A stretch of DNA of 46,493 nt, from the NCBI GenBank assembly GCA_944332535.1, contig CALVKE010000079.1:1-46493 (forward strand), written 5' to 3'. This document shows, one piece after another, positions 9,459-45,218 of this stretch. The stretch comes from an uncultured Bacilli bacterium (GTDB lineage Bacteria > Bacillota_I > Bacilli_A > RF39 > UBA660). Numbering within the stretch: the stretch's first letter is position 1; each line of letters starts with the position of its first letter. The translations under genes and the position numbers were made by a program. A model generated the notes under the pieces. The model ran no database searches. It saw only the letters and a list, made by a program, of their open reading frames with translations, and was not told the origin of the DNA.

Positions 9459-12400
9459 TTAATACAAACGTTCCCAAACCTGTCGCTTTTCTATTGCAGT
9501 TAATGGAAGACTTTCTATATATTGATAAACCATATTCTTGTAATTTGTTATAGAGTATCCTGTCTGTTTAAAAAGAATAACTTTTTCTAGAACCGTTGCG
9601 TTTAATCCATTAATATATTGTTGAATTTGATTTTTTCGATAAGAAGTGTATGTATCACCTTGGTAGTTTTGTTTTATATCATCAGCGAACTTTATAGTAT
9701 TCAAATAATTATCTGATTTTATATTAAAAAGAGACAATATTTTCACATTATCATCAGTTGAATATTCTTTCGAATATAAATAATACTTTTGATCATCGCT
9801 AAAGTCCGAGTTCAATAAATAATCAATAACAAGTTCTTTTGCTTTTAAATTAACATAAGAATTTTGATAGTCATTTTGTGTTGTGTAAAAATCCACGAGT
9901 TGATATGAAGTAAATCCTTTCTCTTCTATGTCCTTAATAAAAGTTTTTCTTCCTTTGTCGTTCAATTTAAAAAAGAACTGATAAATTTCCTCATCATTTC
10001 CAATCTTTTGTAAATCGCTGACAGTTATTGAAGCGCTACTTGTTAGAGTATCAAGTAAATAGTTTTTTTCTTTATTGCTGATAGTATCATTATTCATGAT
10101 AGCGTAGGCTTTTTTTCCAGATGCAGAGCCCTTAATCGTTTTTCCAGAAGGGTCTTGATCAGATTTAATAGAAGATAAATTGGCGAGGTCTGTTCTATAC
10201 TTCCTGTATTCTGATAAACTTATATTTAATTCTTGCCACTCATTTATTTGTTTTTGCGTTAATGGGGCATACCCTTTATCAAAATATTCTTGAGCACTTT
10301 TACTAGAATATTGCCCAAATATCAAACTTTTAGCTACTCCGGAAAAATTAGTAGGTGCTTCAAATCTTAGTTTTCCAGTGGAGGTATAACTTCCCGGATA
10401 TTCATAAAAATACATAGAAGCACCCTCTATCGTTTTTTTCAATTGTCCTCCACCAAACGGCATAACAACGTAAAATAATGGCTTTGTTAATTCTTTTGAT
10501 AAATTTTTAATAGCCTTCTTCTTAGACTCTGGATCAAATAATTGAGTAATTGATTCGGCAGTCACTCCAATATCAGGAATAGCAGATTGAATTGGTAGCC
10601 TTCCACCGCCTAATAAGCCACCTATAAAAGGCAATTCCCCGACTAATTCCGTTGTTATATTCGATATTTTATCGTATGTTGACAGATTATCATTGGTTAC
10701 ATTACGAATGGAATCATTAACAATATCAATAGGACTAAATGCAGACTGTCTTCCAGTTGTAGCTTCATTAAATTTGTTATATAGCCACGCACCTACAAAC
10801 ATCTTAATAAAAGCCCCGACTAGCTTCTTCTTAGCCTCATCTCCTAAGTCTCTCGGTATATCTTTCAACATATATCCATATTGATTGTTGACCTCTAATT
10901 GAAAAGCTGTTACCAATTTAACAAGAGGGCTTTTTCTATTAAAAATTGTTGGCATGCTTCCTTTATCTCTTCCTGCCATAATATCTTTTGCAAATTCATT
11001 GGCGTTTTTAATAGCTTGTTCTTGAGACATTCCTTTGTCAATATTATCATAATATTTTCCTCTAACAACCGTATTAGATGTAATGGAATCAATCGCCTCG
11101 AAAATGATACTGGCTTTAGAATTGATGCTGTCTAATTTCGTTTTATATAAATTTTCTGCTTGCTTCGTTCTATTAATTAAAAAACTAGAACAATTGTCAA
11201 AACCATCGTTTCTGAATTGATTTGAAATACTTTCTTTGATCGCTTTTGCCATATTTTTTGTAGAAACTTGACTCCACGCTTGTGTAATAGGGATAAAATT
11301 AGTTAGAGCGGACGAAATATTGAATCCAACCATATTTGCACTGACTCTAGACTGTACATTTTTCATAATGGTATATGTTTCACGCCCTAACATGTGCTCC
11401 ATGCCGCGATCTCCAATATCTTTTTTGTTTGCCAAACTATCCGTATAATTTCTTAATTCTGTTACTAAGTTAGGAAGAGGATTATTAATTTTTGCGAACT
11501 CTAAATCAATTAATGCTTGTTTTTGGTCTTGATCATAGTCGTTGTTATTTGCTATAGACTCTATATTTTTGCGAATTGCATCATCTGTATACTGCGTTCG
11601 GATAACCGTTTCTAGAGCTCTAAGTTTTTGAATATCTTCGGTATGGAAAATTACGTCTGCAGCACCACGAATATAATTGTCGAACCCTTTCAAGGCATTG
11701 TAGTCAGTTACTTTTCCCAAACGTTGTTGAGCATTTTTAAAATAAGTTTTTCCTGGTTTAAAAATTTCAGTCATACCGGCAATATCTGTCGGTAATTGAT
11801 TTTTATCAATTTTAAATCCCATTTTTTCTGCTAATTTAGCAAATTTGCTTTGTGGTTTTTCTTCTTGAAAATGAGGAAAATATCCTTTTCTATATTCAAT
11901 TTCTTTATATCCTTGTTCTTTTAACACTTTATTTGTTTCAACAATCAATTCATCATAAATGTTTCGGAATTCTTCTACTGCTTTTGAGAGCTTATCATAA
12001 TCTAATTTATTATCGCTAATATATTGATCTAATTGTGGCCCGGTTATTAAAGTTTCTTTATTATATTTATATTCTCCTAACATTTGCACAGCAATCGATT
12101 CTTTATTACTTAAATTAAGTTTCTTGATACGATCGTTATAAGAATTAATAAACTTTTCACTTCTAGCATTGTTTTCTGAGATTGGTTGAAAATAAGTAGA
12201 ATAAATCCTATCCGCATCTGTTTTTGACATAATATCATACATATTTCTTTTCATTGTGTTTATCTGATATTTAATTCCTGCAGATTTATCTTTCCAATCG
12301 ACCATATTTTCAGTTAATTCATACGCTTGATCAATATATTCTTGTTTTTTAGCTATACGCTGTTCTTGGATTTTAAACTCTTTAGAGTTCATCTTTTCAT

Positions 12401-15400
12401 TTTTATTTTTATAATATTCAATTCTACGATCATAGTCTAATTTTCTATTTTGAAGCTGATTGTTTAAATTAGATATTTGAATATTTAATTGTGTAGATAA
12501 TTTTGTATCTTTATTTTGTTTAGAATTTAACAATTGTTGTTTTTGTTTTATTTTATCTTCTATTCTTTTGGCTAATGCATCTTTTTCTTGTTCCAAACGT
12601 TTTATAGCATTTTCATTATTTTCAATTTTCTTTTGATTAACTTTTTTGATTGGTGTTTCTTTTTTTATCTCATTAGTTATTTTTCTTGTTTCTTGAGAGG
12701 TAAGTTTTGGAGCAATAGAGCCTTTTTTTATTTTATTCATTTCTGTCCTCGTTCCAGTTGATTTATAATTTTCTTCTAAATATTCTTGCCACGTTTGGTT
12801 GTTTTGAGAAAGTCTAATATCTCCATCAGGAAAATATCCAAATTCATTTATATCATCACCAGCAAATCGTATGTCTTTTGCCTTTACTTTCATTTCAAGT
12901 ATATTGCCTTTTCCATCAAACTGACTATTATTGTGATATTCAGCGTATGATTTTGATGGTGTAACCCAGTCACCAGTATTTATTTTATTACCAATAGTTG
13001 CTCTATATATTGTTAACTCCGCTTCTGGTTTATTTCGGACTTTTTTTAATGCATTTAATGATTCTTTATTATACTTTTCATCTAAATTCAAATACCATTC
13101 AGGGTGTTCAAAAATGTCAGGCATATTCTCTTCAAAATTAGAAGCGTTTCCATAATCTTCGCTTGGTCTGTGATTCATAAAATAATCAGTATCTGTTCCT
13201 AAATTATTTATATCATTACCAATATCTAGTCTTTGATTTGTATCTGTTGCAGTTTCATATATTTTGTTTCCTAAATTTTCTCCAAGTTGCTTAATAGCAT
13301 AAGTATTTGACCATAAATCGAGCTGATTTACTAAATTATTGTTGGAATCTATCAGATTTACTTGTACATCACCATTATCTTTTCTAAAATACTCAATATA
13401 ATTTGTTTTTAATAAATCATCATATCTTTTTGCTTTTGAATCTAAAGAAAAAGAACTATTTTCTAGTTCCTGCGTATTTTTTATATCTTCTTGCATAGAA
13501 TATTTAGTAGATGATGTGTACAATTTGACATTGCCGTCAGATTGTGATATATTATCATTAGAAAAAGAACTTGCTGCGGGAATTAGACCCGTACCTCGTT
13601 CTTTTTTTTGTTCATATATTTTTTGAAATTCTTTTTGATTAATATTTCTTTTTATATAGTTGTTCAAGTTTCCTTTGCCATAAACAGATTTCACTCGGTT
13701 AATATCCAATTTTATATTATTTGCATTAGTAGTAGTTTCAATTTCTATTGGAACAATGATATTGTTTCCTTGACTATCTTTTATAGTCGTTAATACCAAA
13801 TAATCTTTATTGTTTTTGTTTTTAAATATTACTCTAGGTTCATCTAAACTATCTATTACTCTTATATATAAATCTTTGCCCAACCCGTGATAATGATCTT
13901 TCGGCATAACAACTAATCCTAATTCTTGGGCTTCTCGAGAGGTTAAAATGTTTTTTCTTACATGCGAAGGGTTTTCATACATTGGCAAATTTTTTATACC
14001 ATTATTAACTAAAACTTTTGGTGTATAATCTCTTAGCCTAATTGGATTTCTTTCGTTTATATTATTCAATATATTGTCTATTGCGCTGGAGATGTTAGCG
14101 TTCGTATGATACAGAACTTTATTATTCAAATTGTTATTTTGTGTTCTATACGCCTCTTCCCATTTGTTTTTCAAATCTTGAATAAATAGCGATTCTTTAC
14201 TATTTCCGGTTATCTTGTTAGCAAGGGAAACAATTGCGTTATATATTTTCTTGAATATATTTGGTTGTTTAGTTGATAAATCATTTATGAACTCTTGATT
14301 ACCGAATAATTGTCCGGAAATGTCTGCCAAAACTTCGCTACTAACTTCATCAGTGCCATATGTTTGTTTTAATGATTCTAAAGCTTGATTAAATTCATTA
14401 TTTTTACTTGCATAATCTAATACAAGTTCTTTCATGGAATTTGTTTCTATTGCATGTGTTACTTCATGCATAATTAAAAACTCTCCTGCACGATCTGAAT
14501 TAGGGTTAATTTTGATTTCAGTATCACCGTCAGGAAGAGTTTTTATCTGAGCATTCACATATTGATTTTTATTATTCGTTATTGTGTCATCAAAAATGAT
14601 GTTATATCCTTTGTCGCTTATTATTTTGGCGTATGTATTTAATAAGTTTTTAGTATTTTCTGAATTGTTAAAATATTTGGATGCACTTTCGTTTAAAGAA
14701 TTTATTTTTGGGTTATCTGATTTTTCATATTGATATGGAGTTATGTTATCATTTGATAATATAGAATTACTTATGTCTAAATTTCCTTCTAATAGTGATT
14801 GATTTAAATTTGCTGAGCCAATATTGTTTTCTGATGAATTTGGATAAGATGGCATTTTTTCTGATAAACGGTTTGTAATCTTTTGCGTAGATGTATTTGT
14901 AATATTGTTTTGTGAACGTTTTGTGCTTGTTTTAAAATTATGGATATTTTCCGGTGCTTCTAAAATCCCTCCAGTTATTCCACCAACGATAGCACTATTT
15001 AAAACATCGTTCCAATTAATTTTTTCTCCTTTTGAATATGTTAAATTTTTAAGTAACGGATTGATCATTTCAGTAAGCGCTTCTTCTCCTGCTTCTCCAA
15101 CCATTTTATAGCCCGCTTTTAATATTTCTTTTGAAAGCTTTCCGCTTACTTCATCTAGCGTTTTATATCCAAGTTTCTTCGCAACAATATCGTCTAAACC
15201 TTTCGAATTTTTTAATCCAGGAATTCCTCCTGTTAAAAATTCGCTTCCTATTTCTGCTCCAGCACTTAGCGTTCCATATTTCAATGCATCTGCGGTTGAA
15301 GCATTATTTGAAAAAGCTTCTTGAGTTCCACCGCCAAATGATTTAGCCCCTAAAATACCATAACTTAATGCTTTGTTAATTGGGGCAGTTCCCCCTACCA

Positions 15401-15908
15401 ACATAGACGGAAACATTCCGCCAATTCCCTCGGCGATTTGGCCACCTAAATTATCTCTTTTAATAAGAGAACCGCTTTCCACTTGATTATATAAATTGTC
15501 GGTCCACCCAAGATTTTTCATAACATTATCGACTTGATCTTCAGCTATAAATTGTTTAATCTTGTCACTGTTTTCCTTTTTATCTATTTTTCCATCTAAC
15601 GAATCGATCCACTCAGCTAACCCAAGTCCTAAGCTTGCTCCTGTATCAATTACTCCTTCTAATGTAGAAGCAGCTCCTTTTGCAACTTGTATTGGAAGAT
15701 TTATAGCAGTTTTTCCAATCGTTTTAGTAATATCTCCAAACTGATAACCATCATCAAAATAGCTTTTTGATTTTTTAAAACTTTCTTGATTTGTTACGGA
15801 GGGCATTTCGAGCGCAGCTATCCGCTTTCTTATCTCATTGTATTGTTTTTGATAATCATCAATTTTACTTCCATACTTTTTTTTAAAATCATTATAAGAA
15901 ACTGCCAT
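9459..15908 (-). CDS. giant polyvalent ejection protein (protease, nuclease-like, ADP-ribosyltransferase-like and LPD regions)
   Basis: 2149 residues, the largest gene of the prophage. Regions in order: residues 60-320 glycine/alanine-rich, partly amphipathic; a zinc metallopeptidase motif HEVTH at 481-485 within a domain at about 410-560; at about 600-790 a segment like the MuF C-terminal/PBECR nuclease group (DYTPKVLVNNGI, IFKNKNNKDYLVLTTIKD, NRVKSVYGK); at about 950-1035 a segment like the ADP-ribosyltransferase domain of polyvalent proteins (LTIYRATIG, GDWVTPSKSYAEYH, INEFGYFPDG); a coiled coil at about 1060-1200; then a long helical C-terminal part resembling phage LPD38-type regions. 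Such proteins are packaged and injected with DNA to remodel the host on entry. Domain names are by motif resemblance only. Confidence 0.75.
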   Translation of the reverse strand: MAVSYNDFKKKYGSKIDDYQKQYNEIRKRIAALEMPSVTNQESFKKSKSYFDDGYQFGDITKTIGKTAINLPIQVAKGAASTLEGVIDTGASLGLGLAEWIDSLDGKIDKKENSDKIKQFIAEDQVDNVMKNLGWTDNLYNQVESGSLIKRDNLGGQIAEGIGGMFPSMLVGGTAPINKALSYGILGAKSFGGGTQEAFSNNASTADALKYGTLSAGAEIGSEFLTGGIPGLKNSKGLDDIVAKKLGYKTLDEVSGKLSKEILKAGYKMVGEAGEEALTEMINPLLKNLTYSKGEKINWNDVLNSAIVGGITGGILEAPENIHNFKTSTKRSQNNITNTSTQKITNRLSEKMPSYPNSSENNIGSANLNQSLLEGNLDISNSILSNDNITPYQYEKSDNPKINSLNESASKYFNNSENTKNLLNTYAKIISDKGYNIIFDDTITNNKNQYVNAQIKTLPDGDTEIKINPNSDRAGEFLIMHEVTHAIETNSMKELVLDYASKNNEFNQALESLKQTYGTDEVSSEVLADISGQLFGNQEFINDLSTKQPNIFKKIYNAIVSLANKITGNSKESLFIQDLKNKWEEAYRTQNNNLNNKVLYHTNANISSAIDNILNNINERNPIRLRDYTPKVLVNNGIKNLPMYENPSHVRKNILTSREAQELGLVVMPKDHYHGLGKDLYIRVIDSLDEPRVIFKNKNNKDYLVLTTIKDSQGNNIIVPIEIETTTNANNIKLDINRVKSVYGKGNLNNYIKRNINQKEFQKIYEQKKERGTGLIPAASSFSNDNISQSDGNVKLYTSSTKYSMQEDIKNTQELENSSFSLDSKAKRYDDLLKTNYIEYFRKDNGDVQVNLIDSNNNLVNQLDLWSNTYAIKQLGENLGNKIYETATDTNQRLDIGNDINNLGTDTDYFMNHRPSEDYGNASNFEENMPDIFEHPEWYLNLDEKYNKESLNALKKVRNKPEAELTIYRATIGNKINTGDWVTPSKSYAEYHNNSQFDGKGNILEMKVKAKDIRFAGDDINEFGYFPDGDIRLSQNNQTWQEYLEENYKSTGTRTEMNKIKKGSIAPKLTSQETRKITNEIKKETPIKKVNQKKIENNENAIKRLEQEKDALAKRIEDKIKQKQQLLNSKQNKDTKLSTQLNIQISNLNNQLQNRKLDYDRRIEYYKNKNEKMNSKEFKIQEQRIAKKQEYIDQAYELTENMVDWKDKSAGIKYQINTMKRNMYDIMSKTDADRIYSTYFQPISENNARSEKFINSYNDRIKKLNLSNKESIAVQMLGEYKYNKETLITGPQLDQYISDNKLDYDKLSKAVEEFRNIYDELIVETNKVLKEQGYKEIEYRKGYFPHFQEEKPQSKFAKLAEKMGFKIDKNQLPTDIAGMTEIFKPGKTYFKNAQQRLGKVTDYNALKGFDNYIRGAADVIFHTEDIQKLRALETVIRTQYTDDAIRKNIESIANNNDYDQDQKQALIDLEFAKINNPLPNLVTELRNYTDSLANKKDIGDRGMEHMLGRETYTIMKNVQSRVSANMVGFNISSALTNFIPITQAWSQVSTKNMAKAIKESISNQFRNDGFDNCSSFLINRTKQAENLYKTKLDSINSKASIIFEAIDSITSNTVVRGKYYDNIDKGMSQEQAIKNANEFAKDIMAGRDKGSMPTIFNRKSPLVKLVTAFQLEVNNQYGYMLKDIPRDLGDEAKKKLVGAFIKMFVGAWLYNKFNEATTGRQSAFSPIDIVNDSIRNVTNDNLSTYDKISNITTELVGELPFIGGLLGGGRLPIQSAIPDIGVTAESITQLFDPESKKKAIKNLSKELTKPLFYVVMPFGGGQLKKTIEGASMYFYEYPGSYTSTGKLRFEAPTNFSGVAKSLIFGQYSSKSAQEYFDKGYAPLTQKQINEWQELNISLSEYRKYRTDLANLSSIKSDQDPSGKTIKGSASGKKAYAIMNNDTISNKEKNYLLDTLTSSASITVSDLQKIGNDEEIYQFFFKLNDKGRKTFIKDIEEKGFTSYQLVDFYTTQNDYQNSYVNLKAKELVIDYLLNSDFSDDQKYYLYSKEYSTDDNVKILSLFNIKSDNYLNTIKFADDIKQNYQGDTYTSYRKNQIQQYINGLNATVLEKVILFKQTGYSITNYKNMVYQYIESLPLTAIEKRQVWERLY

Positions 15909-15920
15909 TTTGAACGCCTC

Positions 15921-17003
15921 CTACCATTTCATTGGGCCTTGATAATTTTCTCTAAAATTCACTTTACTCGTAACGTCGATGTAGTCGTTAATTGATCCGT
16001 CCCAAACATAATACTTATTATCGCTGGTCTTCCATACACTTTGGTTATTTAAACTGATTCCAGTAGATCCATATGCACTGTTATCGAAAATCTGCCCTGC
16101 TGTATATCCAGATTTTGATAGTTTTTTTCCGTCCACATTATTAGGTTGATATCCTGAATCTGTTCCATTATAACTGAATACACCATACTTTGCATCAGGA
16201 TTTACTTTTCCCGTATATGGATTGGCAATAATAATTCTACCGTTTGCAGCTTTAGAACTAGAAGAGGAACTTCCAGAAGAAGAACCATTGCTAAATCCAT
16301 AATTTTGAGATTTTTGCAACGCATATTCTTTTTCCCAATTTTTTTGAGATTGTGCTGCCTGTTGTTTTTCGAATTCCAATTGCGCCTGTTGAAGTGCAAG
16401 ATTGGCATTATACTGTCTAATCGCTTCTTGACGTTGTAATTCTGCTAATTGATTTTCCCATTCTTGTTGCTTTTGTGCTAACAATTGTGCATACACTGTA
16501 TTATATTGATTTAATGCTTGTGTATCAATTTGATTTTGCAAATTGGCAATGTTAGAATCATATTGGTTAATTGCATTTAATCGGTTGGTATCATATTGAA
16601 TATTAGCATTATTAACCTGGTCATCTACGGCTTGCAATTGATTAGTTCTATCTCTAATAATAGAATTTAAATTTGTACCATAACTATTATTAATAGAATT
16701 AACTTGACTACCTACTATTCCTTGTGTACCAAGCCCTGCACGACTCATAGCAGATTGATTATCTTTTAACGATAACAATCTATTAATATTTGCCTGCTTA
16801 GCATTATTTAATGCTTCTTGCCTGATAGTGTCTTTCCCAGCATTTAAATTATTGATCGCATTTAATCGTTCATTTTCTATTGCGTCTAAAGTGTTTTGCT
16901 TAGCCTGATTTTGTTGATCAATCAAATATTGACTTTGTTGTTTTAACGCGTCTGCATATTTTTTCGCGGTTTCCTTTGCTTCTTCCATCCAAGAAACTGC
17001 CAT
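15921..17003 (-). CDS. putative internal virion / ejection protein
   Basis: 360 residues. The first 230 are one long Gln/Asn/Ala-rich helical array with heptad character (repeats such as NERLNAINNL and QAQLEFEKQQAAQSQKNWEKE). A Gly/Ser linker follows (SNGSSSGSSSSSSK), then a beta-rich C-terminal piece of about 100 residues (YGVFSYNGTDSGYQP, NKYYVWDGSINDYID). This composition and the place between the tail propeller protein and the giant polyvalent protein fit a podovirus internal core protein. Its N-terminus MAVSWMEEAKE resembles the MAVSYNDFKKK start of the next gene. Confidence 0.55.
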   Translation of the reverse strand: MAVSWMEEAKETAKKYADALKQQSQYLIDQQNQAKQNTLDAIENERLNAINNLNAGKDTIRQEALNNAKQANINRLLSLKDNQSAMSRAGLGTQGIVGSQVNSINNSYGTNLNSIIRDRTNQLQAVDDQVNNANIQYDTNRLNAINQYDSNIANLQNQIDTQALNQYNTVYAQLLAQKQQEWENQLAELQRQEAIRQYNANLALQQAQLEFEKQQAAQSQKNWEKEYALQKSQNYGFSNGSSSGSSSSSSKAANGRIIIANPYTGKVNPDAKYGVFSYNGTDSGYQPNNVDGKKLSKSGYTAGQIFDNSAYGSTGISLNNQSVWKTSDNKYYVWDGSINDYIDVTSKVNFRENYQGPMKW

Positions 17004-19538: not shown

Positions 19539-19925
19539 TTAAATATATTTAGCCTCATGCAAAATTCGTTCTACTTCTTCTGGAACTTCTACTTTTTCGC
19601 CTCTTTTAATCTGCCAAGTATATCCGTTTATAGTAACTGGAACAACTAAATCTTTTGGATTTCTTTTATCAATTGGAATAGTTAAAGTTACTGTTTTTTG
19701 AGTATTTTTTAAAATTCGATTAGTAGATAGTGATTCTTTTCTTAGCTCTTTATCAGACAATTCCTTTAATTTTTCTTCCACTTGTTTATTTTTTTCTTCC
19801 AACTTTTCTTTTTCCTTTTGGAAATTGTTTAAGATTTCTAATTGCTCCGCTGTGATTTTTACAGTAATAGCTTCGTCTTGATTAGAACTGTCAGTATTAA
19901 TTACACTTTCTTTAGTATTTGCCAT
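19539..19925 (-). CDS. capsid-associated small protein
   Basis: 128 residues. Residues 20-65 are a charged coiled coil (LEILNNFQKEKEKLEEKNKQ). Residues 75-125 form a small beta domain (VTLTIPIDKRNPKDLVVPVTINGY, then IKRGEKVEVPEEVERIL) that recurs in uncharacterised proteins beside capsid genes. RBS AAAGGAGGAA precedes the start. It could be a head decoration or completion protein. Its last codons lie in a 10-bp inverted repeat (GAGGCTAAAT/ATTTAGCCTC) without a T run. Confidence 0.6.
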   Translation of the reverse strand: MANTKESVINTDSSNQDEAITVKITAEQLEILNNFQKEKEKLEEKNKQVEEKLKELSDKELRKESLSTNRILKNTQKTVTLTIPIDKRNPKDLVVPVTINGYTWQIKRGEKVEVPEEVERILHEAKYI

Positions 19926-19960
19926 TTTAATTCCTCCTTTAATAAAGCAAGAGCCTGCAA

Positions 19961-20899
19961 TTAAGCAGTAGCTCCTGTTTCAATTCTTACAATTGCCAAT
20001 TCATTTAAACGAATAGCAGTAAACATATTTTTCCATCCGACAGTATTTCTTTGTTCTAATGGATCTGAGGTCCCAGATTCACTAGCTCTTTTTACGATGA
20101 TTCTTGGTTTTCCGCGGCCATTTTCTAAATCAACCATACCGTAAGAATGTCTTCCATAAACAACAGCTCTATGAATTTCTACATCTGAAGTGTTTTCCAC
20201 AGTGGAAGCGTTGGTTGATACTTTAATTCTAGCTTTATCGTATGTACCAATTTCTCCTTTTAACAAGGCTTTTTGGTTAGCGTATTTTGCAACCTCAGTA
20301 AAACCATTTGATGAAGTATCATTTTTCATATCAAATTCTTGATCAGCGTCGATAATTGCATGGTAATAACCATCTTCAAATGGTTTCGCCCCAGCTTTTT
20401 TTAATCTTTTAATAGCCTTTCTAATTTCAAGACCAGTAAGAACGTCGGTTGCTGCTAGAGTGTCTCTTGAAGCTTTACCGTTTGCATATTGAACGGTTGT
20501 TCCTGCAATTACAACATCTCTAACAATAGTATCTACTAAAAGTGAGGCTTGTTCTCCTAAAACTTCACTGGATTCTGTAATGACAGGGTCTTTTGCTTGC
20601 ATGTCTAATACATCAGATACAGTTACATAATCTCCGTATTGATCAGCAGTTGCTTTTAAACTAGTAATGCTTAAAGATTTCCCATCTGGGGTAACTCCTT
20701 CCGTTAAAGGTGTAGTTGGGATTTTGAGAGATTCGAATCGTCTAAATTCTACTTCAGTCCCTTTTCCTTTTGGAATTTTCTTCTTATCAGCGTCTTCTGC
20801 ATATTGAAGCTCTGGTAATAATCTTTCTAACAATGTTCTGTCATAAAAGACTTGGTTTTCGGCTGTTAGAGTACCGATTGTATTGGGCGTATTTGCCAT
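19961..20899 (-). CDS. major capsid protein, N4-gp56 family
   Basis: 312 residues. The opening (QVFYDRTLLERLLPELQYAEDADKKKIPKGKGTEVEF-type region), the LTEGVTPDGKSLSITSLKATADQYGDYVTVSDVLD stretch, and the later HAIIDADQEFDMKND and VVYGRHSYGMVDLENG are characteristic of the N4-gp56/P22-like HK97-fold coat proteins. It builds the icosahedral shell. A strong AAGGAGGAATTAAA ribosome site and its place after the scaffold gene agree. This family is the best single marker that the phage is a podovirus. Confidence 0.88.
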   Translation of the reverse strand: MANTPNTIGTLTAENQVFYDRTLLERLLPELQYAEDADKKKIPKGKGTEVEFRRFESLKIPTTPLTEGVTPDGKSLSITSLKATADQYGDYVTVSDVLDMQAKDPVITESSEVLGEQASLLVDTIVRDVVIAGTTVQYANGKASRDTLAATDVLTGLEIRKAIKRLKKAGAKPFEDGYYHAIIDADQEFDMKNDTSSNGFTEVAKYANQKALLKGEIGTYDKARIKVSTNASTVENTSDVEIHRAVVYGRHSYGMVDLENGRGKPRIIVKRASESGTSDPLEQRNTVGWKNMFTAIRLNELAIVRIETGATA

Positions 20900-20911
20900 T
20901 TTAATTCCTCC

Positions 20912-21712
20912 TTAATCTCCGTTTTTAACACGTTCTACTTCTTTTAAAAATTCTTCTCTGCTCATAGACGCATAATCTATAGTATTAGAAGAATAGTTAT
21001 TCAAACTTCCGGGTGTTGAAATAGTATTTGCTATAGTTTGCTCAGCTTGTTTTATTGACTCTGCACGAAATTTACTTTTTAATTCATTAAAATTATCATA
21101 AAGTTCTACTAAAGATTTGCTTTTTCCCTCAATGTAGTCTTTAAAAAGAGGGTCTGCTAGTAACTCATTTAAATCAACTTTAGGATATTTATTAATAAAA
21201 TCTTCCACATCTTTTTTCGCGTTTTCTTCTATCTCTTTTTGACGTTCTTTCTCGCGAGATTCTTCTCGCCTTTTATCAGCAGCATATATCGCATAATCAC
21301 TTATAGGATCTTTTCCTTCAGCTTCTAACTTGCACATGGCTTCATAAACTTCAATATCTGCTTCGTCTTGCATAACAGTTTGAGTAAAAGGATTTACGCG
21401 TCCTTTGAATGCTTCTAATCTACCTTTTTTATAAGCATCTTGGATCGCTTTTTCACGCTCTTCACGTTCTCTCCTTTTTTGTGCAAATGTTGCTCTTTCT
21501 TCCTTCGTTTGAATTGATTTATTATCTTTTTTGCTTGATTCTACTTCTGAAGAAATTTCGTTAGATTGCGTTTCGTTCTCATTAGAGTCATCTATATTAT
21601 TGCTCGTATCAGTAAATGTCATTTCCTCATTAGAATCATTGATAGCAGACTCTTCCTCTGCCTCGATTGGTGCAGCGACTCCCAATTCTTTTGCGCTATT
21701 TTCGTTTTCCAT
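20912..21712 (-). CDS. capsid scaffold protein
   Basis: 266 residues from the ATG at 21712 (MENENSAKEL), which follows AAAGGAGGAAAA. An upstream TTG start would begin in the tandem repeat. The protein is very rich in Glu, Lys and Ser, disordered for about 80 residues, then helical (EERATFAQKRREREEREKAI) with a C-terminal helix (SMSREEFLKEVERVKNGD-like end). Composition, helix content and the place between portal and capsid genes are typical of phage scaffolding proteins. Confidence 0.75.
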   Translation of the reverse strand: MENENSAKELGVAAPIEAEEESAINDSNEEMTFTDTSNNIDDSNENETQSNEISSEVESSKKDNKSIQTKEERATFAQKRREREEREKAIQDAYKKGRLEAFKGRVNPFTQTVMQDEADIEVYEAMCKLEAEGKDPISDYAIYAADKRREESREKERQKEIEENAKKDVEDFINKYPKVDLNELLADPLFKDYIEGKSKSLVELYDNFNELKSKFRAESIKQAEQTIANTISTPGSLNNYSSNTIDYASMSREEFLKEVERVKNGD

Positions 21713-21724
21713 TTTTCCTCCTTT

Positions 21725-21776
21725 GATTTTTACGCTATTCAATGCGTTATCTTAGATTTTTACGCTATTCAATGCG
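21725..21776. repeat. tandem 22-bp direct repeat upstream of the scaffold gene
   Basis: Two identical 22-bp copies (21725-21746 and 21755-21776), beginning GATTTTTACG and ending CAATGCG, separated by 8 bp. They fill most of the portal-scaffold spacer. Each copy on the minus strand contains TTG followed by six sense codons, so the repeat looks like a duplication of a former gene start. A protein-binding or processing role is also possible. Confidence 0.8.
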
Positions 21777-21787
21777 ATTTTTTAACC

Positions 21788-23479
21788 TTATTGATTAATC
21801 ATTTGCCCCCCAACCAGGGCATTAGTATTCATTTGACTTTGTTGCAAAAGATTCTGTTGTAACAGTTCTTCTTTCTTTTTTCTTCGAATTTGTTTTAGTT
21901 GTTTTTTAAAGGTCATGATCGATTCTGGATAAAGTTCAATATGGTCATCTGCATCGATCGTGCCATCGGCTTTAAGCTGATCTAATAATTGAATGGTAAG
22001 GCTTTCGCTCCAAGCTCCGCCGGCTCCGACTTCTACATTTTGAGAATAGTCAAATTCCTCATACTCTTCTCCTGACATTTGCTCAAAGTATTGATGGCCA
22101 TCTTCTTCAAAAGAAAATAATCTACCATCGTTATAGTAATATTTGAAAAATTGAAGCCAAATTGCTCCGATTTTTTCGTATGATCGGTAATATTTCTTCT
22201 GATACATTTCAACAGGTTTTTTTGCCTGATTTTGAAGAGCAATTATAGCAGACGCTGCCATATTTGCTCCAAGCACTTCTCCAGTCACTACCTCGGTAGA
22301 ACCTGTTGTCGTCCTTGTTAAATCCATCAAAGTGCTGGTTAACTGCAAAGCTTGTGGATTAAACCCAGTGGTTTGCATATATTGAATTCCCCAGCCGTTT
22401 GTTTTTGAATAATCCGTTAAAATTTCTCCAGGAGTGTTCGTGACTACTTGCTTAGCGAGTGCTCCAACTTTTTGAAGGATTTTTGGCCATGCTGTCTGCT
22501 GCACAGAAAGCAGCATCATTCCAACATTAAAATTTAATGCTTTATTGTTTGGAATAGCCTGTTCGACTTCACCAATTCCATAAATACATCGTTTTCTAGA
22601 TTTATGGCTGCCTACAACGATTGGATACAACTGTTTTTGCAAAGAATACTCTTCTTTTGGAACATCCGGCTCGTTAATTTCTTCTAAATCTTCTGATTTG
22701 ATTTTTTTACTATTTAAACGAGGTTCCCAATAAGTAGTTGGCTGTATCTCTACATTTTTGGTAGCTTTTCTCCAAACCACTTTACCATTAACTCTTGAAT
22801 ATTCAGTTAATACTGTGCACACTTCTTTATCTTTTAAAGCTTCATCGTCTATCTCATTGTCGGCACAAATTTCTTCCCAATTGCTTATATGATTTTTTTG
22901 GGCTAACTCACGTACGCTTTCTACCGATTCACTGCTTACGATAATAATCCATCTTTGCTTTTGCTCGTCTTTTACCATCGGATTATCAAAAAAAATATTT
23001 TTAGGATGAATAACCTCGCCTCGCATGGCACCGACAAAAGGAGACTGAACACCGCCGACCACTTCATTATCCCAAAAATAATGTATTGCATAGCTTCCTA
23101 ATTGGGTCGCTTCATCTTGTGCTTCATCATCTAAATCTTCCTGTTTCAATTCTTTTGCGATGTTTTCGGCAAATTTTGTGAATATTTCAGCTCCTTTTGT
23201 TGCTTTATCTAAATTAAAAAACACTTCACTTGGACGATAAATAATTTTAATTTTAGAACTCAAAATATTAGATTTCTTATTTTCAGCAATCATAGAACAT
23301 AAATTTATGACTGGACGCGGCATATTTCTTGTTCGTGGAGTAGGAGGCGGCCAATGTTTTCCTTCGACGAAATTTTCACACTCATCCCACATATCTTCTA
23401 AACCCATGCGTTTGGTATAATTTAACGCGTCTTGATATCTTTTCCAAAGGATTGTTACTTTTTCATTCATCATCATCAT
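21788..23479 (-). CDS. portal protein, P22-like
   Basis: About 564 residues. The opening (LWKRYQDALNYTKRMGLEDMWDECENFVEGKHWPPPTPRTRNMPRPVIN-type region), the middle EGDEVIHPKN-like and GSTEVVTGEVLGANMAASAIIALQNQAKKPVE segment, and the acidic tail match P22-type portal proteins. It forms the dodecameric DNA gate and docks the terminase. Four ATG codons in a row (23479 to 23468) follow AAAGGAAG, so the exact start is uncertain; MNEKVTIL at 23470 is the last possibility. Overlaps the end of the upstream small gene. Confidence 0.85.
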   Translation of the reverse strand: MMMMNEKVTILWKRYQDALNYTKRMGLEDMWDECENFVEGKHWPPPTPRTRNMPRPVINLCSMIAENKKSNILSSKIKIIYRPSEVFFNLDKATKGAEIFTKFAENIAKELKQEDLDDEAQDEATQLGSYAIHYFWDNEVVGGVQSPFVGAMRGEVIHPKNIFFDNPMVKDEQKQRWIIIVSSESVESVRELAQKNHISNWEEICADNEIDDEALKDKEVCTVLTEYSRVNGKVVWRKATKNVEIQPTTYWEPRLNSKKIKSEDLEEINEPDVPKEEYSLQKQLYPIVVGSHKSRKRCIYGIGEVEQAIPNNKALNFNVGMMLLSVQQTAWPKILQKVGALAKQVVTNTPGEILTDYSKTNGWGIQYMQTTGFNPQALQLTSTLMDLTRTTTGSTEVVTGEVLGANMAASAIIALQNQAKKPVEMYQKKYYRSYEKIGAIWLQFFKYYYNDGRLFSFEEDGHQYFEQMSGEEYEEFDYSQNVEVGAGGAWSESLTIQLLDQLKADGTIDADDHIELYPESIMTFKKQLKQIRRKKKEELLQQNLLQQSQMNTNALVGGQMINQ

Positions 23480-23666
23480 CACTTCCTTTAATAATTCCTG
23501 TCTGCCACTCTTCAATTAGGTCAGGAGTATAATGATTTAAGTTTTGAGGAGGCTGATATTCCTCTGCCTTTTGATTATGATTTTTCGTTTCTTTTAAATG
23601 TCTTTCTAAAATCAAGGGTAAAAGTAAACCTAAGACTAAACCTAAAATAAATGTTATTGTTTCCAT
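23463..23666 (-). CDS. small membrane protein between terminase and portal genes
   Basis: 67 residues from the ATG at 23666 (AGGTGGTGAAT upstream). One N-terminal membrane segment (ITFILGLVLGLLLPLILE) and a polar tail ending GSDDDDE, whose codons overlap the portal start. No known function. Confidence 0.6.
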   Translation of the reverse strand: METITFILGLVLGLLLPLILERHLKETKNHNQKAEEYQPPQNLNHYTPDLIEEWQTGIIKGSDDDDE

Positions 23667-23668
23667 AT

Positions 23669-25312
23669 TCACCACCTCATATAAATATCTTCATCATAAC
23701 AATCTTCATCATCTTTTGTCTTCAAAGGATCTGGCCATTCTATTTTTGAATCGTGTTCTATTTCTTTTACGACTAAATCCTGCTGATCACGAATCATCAA
23801 ACAAATACCTAAAGTCATTACTCTATCGTCATGATAGCCGTTTTCTGCTTCTTTTTTTCCGTTTTCCTTTTTTACAAAAGTCAAACATTGCTTCAATGTT
23901 TTTATATTGTTAATTTTGTCAACACTTTCTCGAATAAATTCTGTTAATGTAGCTAGTAAAACAGCTCTTGTTGCAACTGTCGTAAGCCATCCAATTTTGT
24001 CTTGATACTGGACTTTAATAGAATCGTCTGTCATTCTTACATACTGTTTAGGATAGCTCATGTTCCAAAGCATCTTTGTCGGATATGTTGAATAATTGTT
24101 CTCGATACCAATCAAAGCATCATTATAAAATTTTCCGAGACAATACATTTGATCTGCATATAAATCTTCGTCTGTTTCTATTGTTAAAGAGGCAACCTGA
24201 TCACACGTTATATTATTAAGCACATCTCCACAAAATTCATCGCTACCGATACCTGCTGTATCACCAGCCAAAACGTAGGGGTATCCTTCTCTTGGATCTT
24301 CATAAATTTCTATGCATCCATTTGGATCATCTATCCATCGGATATTACTAATTGATAACTCATTTTTCTCATATAAAAAAAGCCCGATTTTTAATGGCTT
24401 TTTATCTTTTATTTTTTCTAATCTTTGAATTAGTTTTTCTTTATCAAAAATACAAGAACCTGTGCCCAAAAATGCTTCTGCTGGACAAATCGGATACTCT
24501 TGTTTAAACATATCAATATCTCCATTACATTCGGTATTGATTTTATGTCTTCTCCATGCTATTTGTTCATAAGACAATTGATACATTAGTTGTAATTCTT
24601 TTTCTTCCTCAGTTAAATCAAAGCCATCATAGAAACGTTGGTATTCCGGAAGTTCGTTCCACCCAATAAAAACAGGAAGAAAATCACTTTCTCCTGCTAC
24701 GGCTTTATCCCATCTTTCTTTAAAATCTTCATATCCGTTGGCTGTTGATTCTATGATAACCATAGTTCCTGGAAGGTCGGGAACGGTTGCCAACAAACCG
24801 GATAAAGTTTCATGCTTTTTTCCTGGCCAAAAAGCATACTCAGAAATATGTAAAAAATGAAAGGTATATGAGCGACCCACACCAGATGAACCAGCCGTCA
24901 TACAGCGAATAGAGGAATTTAGTCCTGTTCCTTTATCGTTATTGAAAACTAATTCTTTGGCATTAGAATATTGAGTTTGTGGACGAAAATTCTCTGGCAT
25001 GTTATTATACATTAACTTAGTCATGTTATATAAGTTACTAGTGGCTTCATCTTTATGTGTAATGATTCCGGCTTGTTTGTTAGAACTATTGATGATATTA
25101 GTAAATATTATTGATTCTGTTGCGGTAGAAATCCCTTCTTGACGTGCTTTTAAAACGATTAAACGAATTGGCTTGTTCTGAGCAGCTTGGCTCTTAATAG
25201 CATCATAAAACTTTTCTTGAGGAATGTTGAATTTTAATGGGACGATTGAACCATTTTTATCCTTAATTTTAATAAATTTTTCAATAAAGAGTTTTCTATT
25301 AATATTCCTCAT
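23669..25312 (-). CDS. terminase large subunit
   Basis: 547 residues. ATPase: Walker A-like LKARQEGIST near residue 55-65, the Walker B-like strand MVIIESTANG with its Glu near 190, and WPGKKHETLSG between them. Nuclease: LAGDTAGIGSDEF with the first catalytic Asp near 350, GIENNY, and the late DDRVMTLGI acidic motif near 505. It packages DNA into the capsid through the portal. ATG 25312 is preceded by a GTG in frame. The gene starts inside the last codons of the small subunit, so the pair is translationally coupled. Confidence 0.9.
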   Translation of the reverse strand: MRNINRKLFIEKFIKIKDKNGSIVPLKFNIPQEKFYDAIKSQAAQNKPIRLIVLKARQEGISTATESIIFTNIINSSNKQAGIITHKDEATSNLYNMTKLMYNNMPENFRPQTQYSNAKELVFNNDKGTGLNSSIRCMTAGSSGVGRSYTFHFLHISEYAFWPGKKHETLSGLLATVPDLPGTMVIIESTANGYEDFKERWDKAVAGESDFLPVFIGWNELPEYQRFYDGFDLTEEEKELQLMYQLSYEQIAWRRHKINTECNGDIDMFKQEYPICPAEAFLGTGSCIFDKEKLIQRLEKIKDKKPLKIGLFLYEKNELSISNIRWIDDPNGCIEIYEDPREGYPYVLAGDTAGIGSDEFCGDVLNNITCDQVASLTIETDEDLYADQMYCLGKFYNDALIGIENNYSTYPTKMLWNMSYPKQYVRMTDDSIKVQYQDKIGWLTTVATRAVLLATLTEFIRESVDKINNIKTLKQCLTFVKKENGKKEAENGYHDDRVMTLGICLMIRDQQDLVVKEIEHDSKIEWPDPLKTKDDEDCYDEDIYMRW

Positions 25313-25712
25313 CACTTATGCAGGACTCCATTTTTTTTACATATTCTTCGTAAGTCATCTCAACATTTACATTTTCTACCTTTTCACGTTCTGCCCAGCC
25401 AAAATTATTTTTTAAATTAAAAATGGTTCCGGTCACATTTTTTCCGTACAAACACATTTCCAAATACGCTTCAATTTTAGCACGCGACTGTTTAATAATT
25501 GGGCCAAAAGTGTCTGGATAATTTTTTTCATATCTATAAAGTGTAGAGCGATCAATATCTAAAAATGAGGCGAGACCGCAAACTCCAACAGGAAGATGAT
25601 TTTTAGTACAGTAGTTAAAATATTCAGAGCATTTTTTTTCAAATTCTTCTATATTTGAATAACTCTTTGGCTTTCCTAGGTGTTGTTTTATCTTTGCTTT
25701 CATGTCTATCAC
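25299..25712 (-). CDS. terminase small subunit
   Basis: 137 residues (or 134 from the ATG at 25703; neither spacing to AAAGGA is ideal). A helix-turn-helix lies at about 45-70 (GVCGLASFLDIDRSTLYRYEK), followed by a helix and an acidic tail. This arrangement is typical of small terminase subunits that recognise pac or cos DNA, and the large subunit follows with a 14-base overlap. Confidence 0.78.
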   Translation of the reverse strand: MIDMKAKIKQHLGKPKSYSNIEEFEKKCSEYFNYCTKNHLPVGVCGLASFLDIDRSTLYRYEKNYPDTFGPIIKQSRAKIEAYLEMCLYGKNVTGTIFNLKNNFGWAEREKVENVNVEMTYEEYVKKMESCISDEEY

Positions 25713-32342: not shown

Positions 32343-33020
32343 TTACATTTTTGAGTTTTTATGCACAGCTCCAAGATAAACAGCTTCGCGATCATTTTCC
32401 GCATCTTCTGTGCCCCAATGAACATATCTTTTTGTATAATCGTAATCATCGTGATTATACATCTTCATGAGAGTGTCGGGTTTACCCCCATTTTTGATAT
32501 ACATATAACCAAATGTTTTTCTTAAGCTGTGGAGACCAAATACAAAATAAATTCCGACTTCTTTTCCGTTCTTACTAATAATCTTGTGCCCTTGCTGTCT
32601 TGTTATTGGGTATATGACAGGATATGTTTGGCCGTTATAAGTTTGAATCTTCTTTTGACCCATAAACAGGTAATCTGATCTTGTTAAATGATTTCTTTCA
32701 ACATAATTTTTTATGTCGTCGTGAAGCTTACTGTTCATTTTAAAATTCTGCATTTTTCCAGTCTTATTTTCTTTTATATGAACATAACCATCAATGACAT
32801 CAGCAACGCGCAATTGCAGTAAATCCTCTGCACGAAAAGCAGTGTTAAAGCCAATCAAAGCAAGCATATAATTACGATCAGCTTGATATTTTCGGGCTGG
32901 TGTTTTGGCGTGCTCATATTTTCTCAAAAGATGAAGCATATATTCTTTTAACAATTTAACGTCTTTGATAGGAAGAGTTTCTTGCTGGCCACCAAATTTT
33001 TTAATTCTTCTTGTTTGCAC
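32343..33020 (-). CDS. small tyrosine recombinase (catalytic domain)
   Basis: 225 residues from GTG 33020, after AAAGGAAGTGATAAA. Tyrosine-recombinase residues: R63 in NTAFRAEDLL, H164-S-L-R167, H190, and the probable nucleophile in TKRYV at Y199. The core-binding domain normally in front is almost absent, so this is shorter than a full integrase. The prophage already has a serine integrase at its edge, so this one, in the replication module, is more likely a resolvase for phage genome dimers or a second recombinase acquired with the module. Downstream of dnaB and a 56-residue gene. Confidence 0.8.
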   Translation of the reverse strand: MQTRRIKKFGGQQETLPIKDVKLLKEYMLHLLRKYEHAKTPARKYQADRNYMLALIGFNTAFRAEDLLQLRVADVIDGYVHIKENKTGKMQNFKMNSKLHDDIKNYVERNHLTRSDYLFMGQKKIQTYNGQTYPVIYPITRQQGHKIISKNGKEVGIYFVFGLHSLRKTFGYMYIKNGGKPDTLMKMYNHDDYDYTKRYVHWGTEDAENDREAVYLGAVHKNSKM

Positions 33021-37690: not shown

Positions 37691-39208
37691 ATGTACGGAG
37701 CTTATTTGCGAAAGTCAAGAGCTGATTTAGAGCTCGAAAAAACAAGTGGAGTTGACACATTGCAACGACATAGAGACATAATCAAAAATACCGCAAAATA
37801 TATGAATATCACAATTTCGAAATGGTGGGAAGAGGTTGTGTCGGGCGAAACTATAAAGGATCGTCCAGAAGTGCAAAAGATGCTTTTAGAGGTGGAACAG
37901 GGAAAATTTGATGGAATACTAGTCGTAGATGTGGATCGTTTAGCACGCGGAGATACTGCGGACCAAGCAAGAATTTCTAAAGCCTTCGCCTTCTCTTCTA
38001 CAAAAATTGTCACTCCTACTAAAATTTACGATCCAAACAACGACGCGGACGAAGAGTATTTTGAATTTGGCCTCTTCATGTCGAGACGCGAGTATAAAAC
38101 AATTAATAAACGATTGAATCGTGGACGTATATCTTCTGTCAATGAAGGGAAATTTGTTGGCTCTGTTTGTCCATATGGGTATTCTAAAGAAAAATTGAAA
38201 GGGCAGAAAGGATATAAACTGGTTATTGACGAAGACGAAGCAAAAATTGTTAAAATTATCTTCGAATCAGCTTGTAAAGGTACGGGAGCATCTAATATAG
38301 CAAATCACCTGAATAAAATTGGTTCTAAGCCGCGAAAGGCAGACGTTTGGGTATCGGCATCGATTCGAGACATTATTCAAAATCCCGTTTATTATGGAAT
38401 GATAAAATGGAATTATCGAAAAACAGAAAAACGAATGATCAACGGCGTTGTATATACATCAAGGCCAAAACATAAAGAATTTATTCTAACGCAAGGACTA
38501 CATGAATCGATTATTAAAAAGGAAGTATGGGAGATGGCAAATGAAAAGTCTAAAATTAAAACGGGAAAGTCCGTCAAAAAAGAGTTAAAAATGCAAAATC
38601 CTCTTGCTGGATTAGTCGTTTGCGGAATTTGTGGAAGAACAATGCAACGACGCAATTACAGCTCTGGCCACACAGACAGCTTGATGTGTCCTTTACCACA
38701 TTGTAAAAATTGTAGTTCGCATTTATATTTAGTCGAAAATGCTATTTTAGACGGGCTACGAGCTTATTTAAAAGAATTCAAGCAAATAATAATTGACTAC
38801 AAAGATGAACAAAATGAGACCAATTTAAATAATGATAATAAAGAAATAATTGAAAAAGAAATAGAAAAAACAAATCAGCAATTAAATAAAGCATATGACT
38901 TGCTTGAGCAAGAAATTTATGACAACGATACTTTTTTAAAGCGTAGCAAACAGTTAAAAGAAAAAATTGATCAATTAAATTCGGAATTAGAAAAATATTC
39001 TGTTGAATCAAAGAACAAAAAAGTTCAAAAGATTAAAAATGTTATTCCAAATTTAGAAAAAATTTTAGACGATTACTCTACAGACTTAAGTCCAGAGAGC
39101 AGAAACGAATTGCTAAAGTCCGTAATTAATAAAGTAATTTATTTAAAAACTGTTAAAGGTAGAGGACACGAAGATGAATTTACTTTAAAGCTCGATATAA
39201 AATTATAG
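37691..39208 (+). CDS. large serine recombinase (phage integrase)
   Basis: 505 residues, RBS GAGAGGAAGTG. Resolvase domain with catalytic S9 in AYLRKS, then DRLARGD and the EYFEFGLFMSRREYKTIN helix. Recombinase domain at about 160-270 (NKIGSKPRKADVWVSASIRDII, NPVYYGMIKW). Zinc ribbon at about 305-345 (CGICGRTM, CPLPHCKNC). Coiled coil at about 370-445. It ends 21 bp before the attR core, as expected for this class. Its reading frame continues in phase into the cotJC 3' part after one TAG. No directionality factor is recognisable; the HNH gene is the first gene past attP in the circle. Confidence 0.93.
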   Translation: MYGAYLRKSRADLELEKTSGVDTLQRHRDIIKNTAKYMNITISKWWEEVVSGETIKDRPEVQKMLLEVEQGKFDGILVVDVDRLARGDTADQARISKAFAFSSTKIVTPTKIYDPNNDADEEYFEFGLFMSRREYKTINKRLNRGRISSVNEGKFVGSVCPYGYSKEKLKGQKGYKLVIDEDEAKIVKIIFESACKGTGASNIANHLNKIGSKPRKADVWVSASIRDIIQNPVYYGMIKWNYRKTEKRMINGVVYTSRPKHKEFILTQGLHESIIKKEVWEMANEKSKIKTGKSVKKELKMQNPLAGLVVCGICGRTMQRRNYSSGHTDSLMCPLPHCKNCSSHLYLVENAILDGLRAYLKEFKQIIIDYKDEQNETNLNNDNKEIIEKEIEKTNQQLNKAYDLLEQEIYDNDTFLKRSKQLKEKIDQLNSELEKYSVESKNKKVQKIKNVIPNLEKILDDYSTDLSPESRNELLKSVINKVIYLKTVKGRGHEDEFTLKLDIKL

Positions 39209-42591: not shown

Positions 42592-42635
42592 TTTTCTCTT
42601 CCTTTCTTTCGTCTTAGAAGGTTGGGTTAGTTTTG

Positions 42636-42645
42636 CCCCCCCCCC
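42636..42645 (-). repeat. G10 homopolymer between two start codons
   Basis: Ten G on the coding strand, unusual in this A/T-rich DNA, in codons 9-12 of the longer reading of the surface-protein gene. Loss or gain of one G would put the upstream start out of frame while leaving the downstream start untouched. Confidence 0.8.
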
Positions 42646-42759
42646 GACTCTTTTTAATTTATCGTACATCTTCTTACTTCCCTTCTATTTTATACCCTCA
42701 TTATAAGCGTTTTTTCCTTATTTGGCAAGAGACAAGCAATTGTTTTTCTTCTTAGAAAA

Positions 42760-44277: not shown

Positions 44278-44279
44278 AA

Positions 44280-45218
44280 TTACTTCCCTCCTTTTATAAT
44301 CCTTGTACCTGCTTTTCCTTGTAGAGCTTTTTTCGCTTTGGATAAAGAAGTAATAATAGCAATTCCACGACCACGACTTACAAAATCAATGCACGCTTCA
44401 ATCTTAGGAAGCATACTACCAGGTGCAAATTCTCCGCTTTCGATGTATTCTTTTGCTTCTTTGATAGTCATCGTCTTCAATTTTTCTTCGTCTTCTTCTT
44501 GATAGTTAATGGAAACTCGATCTACTGCTGTTAAAATTAGCAGAACATCGGCTTTCAAATTCGAAGCAAGACAGGCTGAAGTTTTGTCTTTGTCAATGAC
44601 GGCATCCACTCCTTGATATCCTTTGCGAGTATTTATAACCGGGATCCCACCGCCACCACAGGCTATGACGATGTTCCCTCGGTTCATCAAATCACGAATG
44701 GTTTTTAACTCCAAAATTTTCTTTGGAGCAGGAGATGCTACCACTCGACGGTATCCTCTACCAGCATCTTCCTTCATGATATATCCCTTCTCTTTTGCTA
44801 ATTGACAAGCTTCTTCCTTGGAATAGAAAGAGCCAATTGGCTTCGTGGGATTTTGAAACGCTTTATCGTTTTTATCTACTTCTACTTGGGTAATGACCGT
44901 TAGACAATTTCTTCTCATTCCACGGCGAATTACCTCTTTTTGAATTGCTTGTTGTAAATGATATCCAATGTATCCTTGACTCATTGCCCCACACTCGGCA
45001 AACGGCATCTCAGGAGATGCGATCTCGTTATGGGAATATTCCATCGCTAGATTAATCATTCCCACTTGAGGGCCATTTCCATGGGTTACAATAATTCTAT
45101 TTCCTTCTTCTACTAGATCTACTAAACTTTTAGCAGTTGATTTTACTAACTCTAATTGCTCTTCTGGAGTATCCCCTAAGGCATTTCCTCCAAGAGCAAT
45201 GACAATTCTCTTTCTCAT
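44280..45218 (-). CDS. arcC: carbamate kinase
   Basis: 312 residues, normal length. [16 protein letters not shown] at the start, [38 protein letters not shown] and [14 protein letters not shown] are hallmark motifs. It makes ATP from carbamoyl phosphate and ADP. Overlaps arcB by four bases (ATGA). Confidence 0.95.

Follow-up and report, generated by a model that had tools for sequence, protein, structure and literature searches.

A prophage-encoded giant polyvalent protein with a constant frame and an exchangeable middle bay in an uncultured Bacilli bacterium

Polyvalent proteins, a class of phage proteins known since 2017, are large multidomain polypeptides that join zincin-like, PBECR/MuF-C and ADP-ribosyltransferase (ART)-type modules and whose genes lie next to those for the portal and terminase (Iyer et al. 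2017, PMC5512222; here and below, comparisons with PMC5512222, PMC5576092 and PMC8402733 draw on excerpts of these papers). Their processing by the metallopeptidase has been proposed, and mosaic architectures have been described for Helicobacter pylori jhp1044 (PMC5512222). Here we analyse a protein of 2149 amino acids encoded in the window, i.e., the whole stretch of 46493 bases formed by the single contig C79 (CALVKE010000079.1) from the incomplete genome (1.12 Mb, 96 contigs) of an uncultured, small-genome Bacilli bacterium. This giant is a phage polyvalent protein: it unites several disparate domains in one polypeptide (MuF_C and a zincin-like core, the ART-like one being less certain), and its gene lies near virion genes in a phage with portal and terminase. 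Unlike the polyvalent proteins in the excerpted text of PMC5512222, the window family adds, within one gene family, a constant N- and C-terminal frame, an internal bay and joints visible at the DNA level. What is new here is the fixed frame with its internal bay, the near-identical pairs, the DNA-level joints and a module common to two chassis. The words "linker" and "short motif" each occur 0 times in the text of PMC5512222, and the titles and abstract openings surveyed among open, published papers yielded no report that polyvalent proteins have linker joints or exchange cassettes.

MuF polymorphic toxins (Jamet et al. 2017, PMC5576092) resemble the giant in being temperate-phage proteins with modular effectors and a MuF_C-type domain, but the window protein lacks a detected MuF N-terminal domain, and its variable part is internal to a frame of 2149 amino acids. 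The assignment of the giant to the MuF polymorphic toxins was rejected, as Pfam scans of the whole protein and of segments revealed no N-terminal MuF head domain and MuF_C is internal, not C-terminal.

In P22, the genes of the ejection proteins follow those of the portal, capsid and tail. The window giant has the corresponding place in a phage with a P22-type portal; in contrast to gp7, gp16 and gp20 (PMC8402733), it is one giant with enzyme-like domains. PHROGs scans, which were general rather than direct comparisons, gave no match of the gp7, gp16 or gp20 type. P22 ejects about 3.0 million daltons of proteins with its DNA (PMC8402733); by our arithmetic, that mass would be approached by some twelve copies of a protein weighing ~0.24 million daltons, a figure that serves only as a prompt for virion stoichiometry. 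The injected giants of the N4 virion RNA polymerase type are, like the predicted product here, giant, virion-packaged and endowed with a metallopeptidase region (discussed in PMC5512222), but neither Pfam nor PHROGs detected a polymerase domain in the window protein. T4 Alt is annotated in the database as a phage ART entering the cell together with the DNA, as the window giant presumably does, but the two are not related by profile (hhalign probability of 0.3% against the ART-like family).

A constant frame, a variable bay and the joints between them

The window giant was compared with its relatives in a set of 17 giants (the window protein, L002-L007, L015-L017, L019-L022, H1 (L024), and the partial G001 and G008), most of the relatives being metagenome contigs or metagenome-assembled genomes (MAGs). 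L003 is also truncated by a contig end, and L018 was excluded as a near-duplicate of L017. In this family, the N- and C-terminal chassis are constant and the middle bay varies among related phages. The first-pass annotation of this DNA, made from the sequence, had missed this exchangeable middle cassette, which is the most informative feature of the protein. The parts of the window giant are as follows:

9459..15908, minus strand: giant polyvalent protein, 2149 amino acids, ATG start; similar-length homologues in matching gene order
14727..15908, minus strand: N-terminal chassis, residues 1-394; blastp identity 71% to L002 (including the zincin part), 52-54% to L004/L005
14124..14726, minus strand: predicted zincin-like metallopeptidase domain, residues 395-595; HEVTH at 481-485 (14454-14468), putative third ligand E525
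14121..14159, minus strand: joint A, end of the N chassis (WEEAYRTQNNN region; ..KWEEAYRTQNNN); blastn similarity ends at window residue 588-597
13620..13904, minus strand: cassette slot 1, MuF_C/PBECR nuclease-like domain, ~residues 669-763; PF18819 above cut-off
13437..13568, minus strand: joints B and C, linker with KYSMQE and ELENSSFSL, residues 781-824; low model confidence
12825..13421, minus strand: cassette slot 2, ART-like module, residues 830-1028, core 913-1025; phrog_2579 match
12723..12830, minus strand: joint D, DIRLSQNNQTWQEYLEENYKSTGTRT, start of the C chassis; shared with L002-L005
9462..12722, minus strand: C-terminal all-helical chassis, residues 1063-2149; 83-84% to L004/L005, 55% to L002 and L017

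The frame is recognized by blastp on either side of a gap. For L004 and L005, the aligned parts of the window protein are residues 1037-2149 (83-84%) and part of residues 50-624 (52-54%), and blastp finds nothing in between; L002 matches residues 1-596 (71%) and 1176-2149 (55%) only. The frame is not uniform across the family: the zincin part of the N chassis is common to L003, L006, L007, L019-L022 and G008, but the C half of these proteins is unlike that of the window or has only its end in common with it. The clearest cases are pairs of giants that differ by their bays. L015 and L016, found on contigs of different datasets and similar across ~2000 residues, are 87.96% identical overall with nearly identical flanks, whereas their bays (~701-891) retain 7-15 identities per 50 columns and hold MuF_C in L015 versus LPD3 in L016; the two are also moderately different near residues 51-200. 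Likewise, L020 and L021 share ~90% on either side of differing bays, L004 and L005 have similar flanks around different bays, and an ART-like insert present in L006 is absent in L007. The bay contents are the following:

MuF_C (Pfam): window, L015, H1
PBECR3 (Pfam): L019
LPD3: L016 and G008 above cut-off; L003 and L005 below cut-off; L006 and L007 only via similarity to L003
LPD23 and a second HExxH: L002, L004, L017, L020
ART-PolyVal: L022, G008, G001

No Pfam domain was detected in the bay of L021, and further ART-like segments were found by alignment in L002, L003, L006, L015, L016 and L019.

Pairwise blastn of the coding sequences showed that similarity ends at four recurrent short linker joints. 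Joint B (residues 781-821, KYSMQE) is 85.7% identical at the DNA level to L005 over 119 bp, the preceding modules being unrelated, and joint C (ELENSSFS) is identical to L004 at 24/24 bp. A peptide like joint D is present in L006, L007, L015-L019, G001 and G008; in G001 and G008, other cassettes terminate in it. Besides, the ART-like module is shared with L030 over 648 bp at 83.3% DNA identity, from joint C on and confined to the module with its linker, and a second match to L030, of 54 bp, lies near joint A. L030 is another kind of giant: its N part is unlike that of the window protein, and its bay, judged by eye, looks LPD23-like with HExxH. Between the window and L030, the nonsynonymous and synonymous rates of this module are 0.074 (dN) and 0.894 (dS), i.e., dN/dS ~0.08, and the module is thus under purifying selection.

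The pattern D[IVA]R[FYL]S was encountered 12 times against 0.5 expected, a weak result as several of the sequences are mutually related. It occurs in the giants L088, L091, L095, L101, L050, L003 and L022 and at window residues 1029-1033, in several of them directly after an ART-like domain.

Domains of the frame and of the bay

The first-pass annotation had suggested a 2149-residue protein combining a HEVTH metallopeptidase, a MuF-C/PBECR-type nuclease-like part, an ART-like part and a large LPD-type region, which, once packaged, could disarm host defences on entry. The open reading frame (ORF) is exact, on the minus strand and with an ATG start, and the plus strand of 9459-15908 holds stops throughout. 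The general picture of a multidomain, probably virion-borne protein stands, with zincin-like, MuF-C/PBECR and ART-like domains encoded in a late structural operon. In the structure prediction, the zincin-like and ART-like cores were modelled confidently, MuF_C was of low confidence and no solved structure was matched.

The HEVTH region is predicted to be a zincin-like metallopeptidase, in agreement with the first-pass annotation. The motif lies at residues 481-485 within a confidently modelled zincin-like core, and H481, E482, H485, E525 and D529 are invariant in 7/7 aligned relatives. In a structure model of residues 395-1062, built with an alignment of 34 sequences, the region reached a predicted local distance difference test (pLDDT) score of ~85-97; a helix at its N-terminal end is followed by three strands, the helix with HExxH and a further helix that bears E525. 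The zincin-like metallopeptidase of polyvalent proteins is defined by an N-terminal helix, a three-stranded sheet, the HExxH helix and a second, Glu-bearing helix, and the window model fits this definition, including the placement of H481, E482, H485 and E525 (PMC5512222). No membrane segment with a 19-residue mean hydropathy of >=1.3 was found in the window protein.

The nuclease-like part of the earlier annotation was confirmed by Pfam: PF18819 (MuF_C) was detected with an E-value of 5.3e-14 in a profile search of the genome and of 2.2e-13 on the protein segment, scoring 50.7-52.1 bits against a cut-off of 27.6, and was absent from the listing when the entire protein of 2149 amino acids was scanned. 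MuF_C is a PBECR-type predicted RNase (PMC5512222). Candidates for the active-site histidine and the C-terminal Ser/Thr of PBECR/MuF_C domains are H672/H674 and S741, of which S741 is invariant in an alignment of three sequences; the model of this domain is of low confidence. LPD3 was considered as a hidden relative of MuF_C/PBECR3 and rejected (hhalign 0.2%).

The second slot of the bay matches phrog_2579 over residues 863-1027 (E-value of 7e-24). The label of this family, "ParB C-terminal domain", which would suggest a DdrB-like ParB domain of the ParB/Srx fold, found no support in Pfam, with 0 ParB matches in 27 members. A search of viral contigs for the family led from 556 pattern matches to 452 confirmed relatives, of which 80 were kept, and 22 of these 80 loci were aligned with four phage records and the window (n=27). 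H913, P915, P961, R969, G979, D980, A989 and E1022 are invariant in all 27 sequences and S985 is conserved in at least 90%. In ARTs of the R-S-E type, Arg, Ser and Glu are expected on ordered strands. In the window model, the core reached a pLDDT of 90-98; R969 lies on a strand, S985 at the following strand or immediately past it, and E1022 ahead of a late strand, a succession of strands and helices that suits the R-S-E type. The R-S-E ART clade is named in the excerpted text of PMC9503650. One structure match, to the Mycobacterium phage Phabba protein, spans 127 columns at 2.3 A. Neither PDB Foldseek nor VIA-align yielded a usable match to known ARTs, and a relationship to T4 Alt (hhalign 0.3%) or to ART-PolyVal (hhalign 0.1%) was rejected by profile. 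We therefore name the module ART-like, not ART: the conserved domain annotated at first pass stands (phrog_2579, pLDDT >90), while its ART identity, because the Pfam, PDB-sequence and hhalign tests were negative, is suggested by residue order and predicted topology.

The ART-like domain (12834-13172, minus strand, in the window, and loci L025-L109) forms an abundant phage family with the pattern H..R..GDWV[TS]..S..YA..E[FW]G, which phage records label "ParB C-terminal domain" or hypothetical; no sensible Pfam match for this family (H, R, GDWV, E) was obtained in the 27 members tested. In L042 and L057, the domain comes after an HP.CRC motif of the kind typically seen in MuF head proteins, a hint that it may be fused to head proteins there. 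L031 and L032 represent one giant in which, by eye on the translation, a window-type ART-like domain is accompanied by a second ART-like stretch (YHGS) and a MuF_C-like stretch.

The large LPD-type region of the first-pass annotation was not recovered, as no LPD model in Pfam matches the whole protein or its segments, and LPD3, LPD23 and LPD38 were found in relatives only. Instead, the last 1087 residues form a conserved all-helical region shared with polyvalent proteins. Its model is helical with a mean pLDDT of 55, confident only in the last ~320 residues and in parts before them. Compared with viral-protein structures, it gave 6 matches at E <=0.001, the top ones being a polyvalent protein with an ART (1.1e-23) and, next, a podovirus protein with LPD3 (1.6e-13); since the TM-scores are low and the root-mean-square deviation is ~30 A, these matches indicate relationship, not superposition. 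The identification of the C chassis as LPD38 was rejected, as its alignment with L006 is limited to the final 118 columns and lies away from the LPD38 part of L006.

Proposed cargo delivery and alternative explanations

Based on this architecture, we propose that the giant is a polyvalent delivery chassis with an exchangeable effector bay, a reading that we regard as fairly probable. In its favour are the gene order and the P22-type portal, the contrast between chassis and bay, the DNA-level joints, the cassette found again in L030 with its low dN/dS, the structure matches to polyvalent proteins that carry other cargo and the precedent of this protein class (PMC5512222). The zincin-like N chassis and the helical C chassis would be inherited together with the virion genes, and both ends would most likely put the protein into the capsid and then into the cell alongside the DNA. 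The bay would carry effector modules on low-confidence, probably flexible linkers, in the window the MuF_C/PBECR nuclease-like and ART-like modules. Related phages would replace modules by recombination at short conserved linker sequences, and therefore, we suggest, the cargo could change with the virion part undisturbed. The metallopeptidase may separate or free the modules, and these may attack RNA or proteins of the host at an early stage of infection. Predictions of polyvalent proteins go back to 2017, and their fast diversification while remaining compatible with the virion appears little explored. Near-identical pairs differing by one cassette constitute a natural experiment that identifies chassis, joints and cargo, and permit a direct test of each cargo with the rest of the phage unchanged.

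Several observations weigh against this proposal. Packaging, ejection, self-cleavage and enzyme activity are predictions from genes and models, and bay exchange by itself does not demonstrate cargo delivery. The zincin region matched nothing in Pfam, PDB sequences or PDB folds, with 0 PDB Foldseek matches at E <=0.001 and none in VIA-align at Z >=8, a list dominated by helices. MuF_C was modelled poorly (pLDDT ~45), and the ART-like family had neither a Pfam match nor a PDB sequence match. Concerning the linkers, [KRS][YFL]S[MLQIK] was counted 53 times in the 16 family proteins, whereas shuffles gave 25.2 +- 5.0; in the 13/16 proteins for which both borders were located, it is present at 25/4911 bay residues versus 15/20320 elsewhere (Fisher p 3e-9); because this pattern was picked after viewing the sequences and the proteins are related, its enrichment is a lead only. 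The idea that [KR][FY]S[ILM] marks large phage ORFs in general was rejected (13 observed vs 13.2 expected in 120 ORFs). Near the borders of ART-like domains, [FY]S[ILMV] was weakly enriched (6/2033 residues vs 22/21836, p 0.028), as counted on one representative of each of 23 clusters, 71/80 loci having matched cleanly.

The giant may instead be mainly a structural ejection protein, a DNA conduit like the P22 E proteins, whose enzyme-like domains aid entry or assembly and not anti-defence. P22 gp7, gp16 and gp20 are injected and thought to build a trans-periplasmic conduit (PMC8402733), and the late structural position of the window gene, its very long helical C-terminal part and the chassis being the best conserved part all suit such a role. 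We rate it as possible rather than probable, given that the frame holds a variable bay of nuclease-like and ART-like modules and that the ART-like module recurs in a different chassis under purifying selection; both readings may hold. The cargo could also be a weapon or a modulator of lysogeny rather than a counter-defence, as proposed for the MuF toxins of temperate Firmicutes phages (PMC5576092). The presence of MuF_C, an effector-module exchange so fast that it recalls polymorphic toxins and a temperate setting with integrase genes are consistent with this, yet the variable part is internal rather than C-terminal and Pfam detected no MuF N-terminal domain, so we consider it rather unlikely. 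That the bay differences are artefacts of metagenome assembly is conceivable for relatives that are mostly metagenome contigs and MAGs, but we judge it very improbable indeed, as the same joints appear in several pairs from different contigs and the reading frames stay open across them.

The role of the joints themselves is a separate matter. An extension of the delivery reading holds that the internal bay is exchanged at the joints NNN, KYSMQE, SSFSL and DIR[YL]S..W.E[YH]L..N[YF]...GT and that these same joints are protease sites for the built-in metallopeptidase after entry. The bay would then work as a loading dock, with recombination joint and processing site in one and the constant ends serving packaging and ejection; taken as a whole, we find this combination improbable. 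On the other hand, the conserved linkers may be recombination joints only, i.e., shared DNA with no part in cleavage, to which we give even chances. The identity of ELENSSFS between the window and L004 (24/24 bp) and the 85.7% over 119 bp to L005, in bays that are otherwise unrelated, speak for joints alone, but similar peptides (DIRYS, KYSMQE, SSFS) are kept in the far more distant G001, G008 and L022.

Prophage setting and neighbouring genes

Contig C79 bears a prophage with genes for a GP3_package small terminase, the terminase large subunit, a P22-type portal, the major capsid protein, a phrog_3287 protein and the giant; it also encodes a tail-fibre-like protein, an endolysin, a DnaB helicase and two integration enzymes. 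The giant gene belongs to the late structural operon, where the genes for terminase, portal, capsid and tail precede it. In P22-like phages, the genes of ejected proteins occupy a comparable position after portal, capsid and tail genes. The neighbouring features are:

15921..17003, minus strand: 360-amino-acid protein, upstream neighbour of the giant; kept at 33-85% in L002, L004, L005 and L015-L017
17008..18855, minus strand: 615-amino-acid virion structural protein (phrog_3287); present in 13/14 relative loci tested
19961..20899, minus strand: major capsid protein (phrog_1357, E 4.8e-68)
21788..23515, minus strand: portal protein, P22 type (PF16510)
23669..25315, minus strand: terminase large subunit (phrog_2)
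25299..25712, minus strand: small terminase, GP3_package (PF16677)

All nine structural genes, from the small terminase to the 360-amino-acid gene, lie upstream of the giant in the window order in L002, L004 and L005, and 7/9 are present in L015-L017, the terminase genes being beyond the fetched stretch or not found. Among named genomes, the closest relatives are MAGs labelled Clostridia and Bacilli, one of them from deer rectum; gut bacteria are the source of close relatives.

The same prophage contains both a tyrosine integrase-like gene (32343-33020, minus strand) and a large serine recombinase (37691-39208, plus strand). Further along, a protein of 1009 amino acids (39640-42669, minus strand) combines an ALK_LTK glycine-rich domain with three Glucodextran_B stretches. 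At the right end (42832-46204, minus strand), genes for a DcuC-family carrier, an amino-acid kinase and an ornithine/aspartate carbamoyltransferase stand in a row and probably represent a host arginine pathway. Within the structural genes, a stretch of 25 nucleotides is identical at 19915-19939 and 20889-20913, spanning the start regions of a 128-amino-acid gene and of the capsid gene, and two adjoining repeats of 30 nucleotides, 90% identical, lie at 21721-21780 between the portal gene and the next gene.

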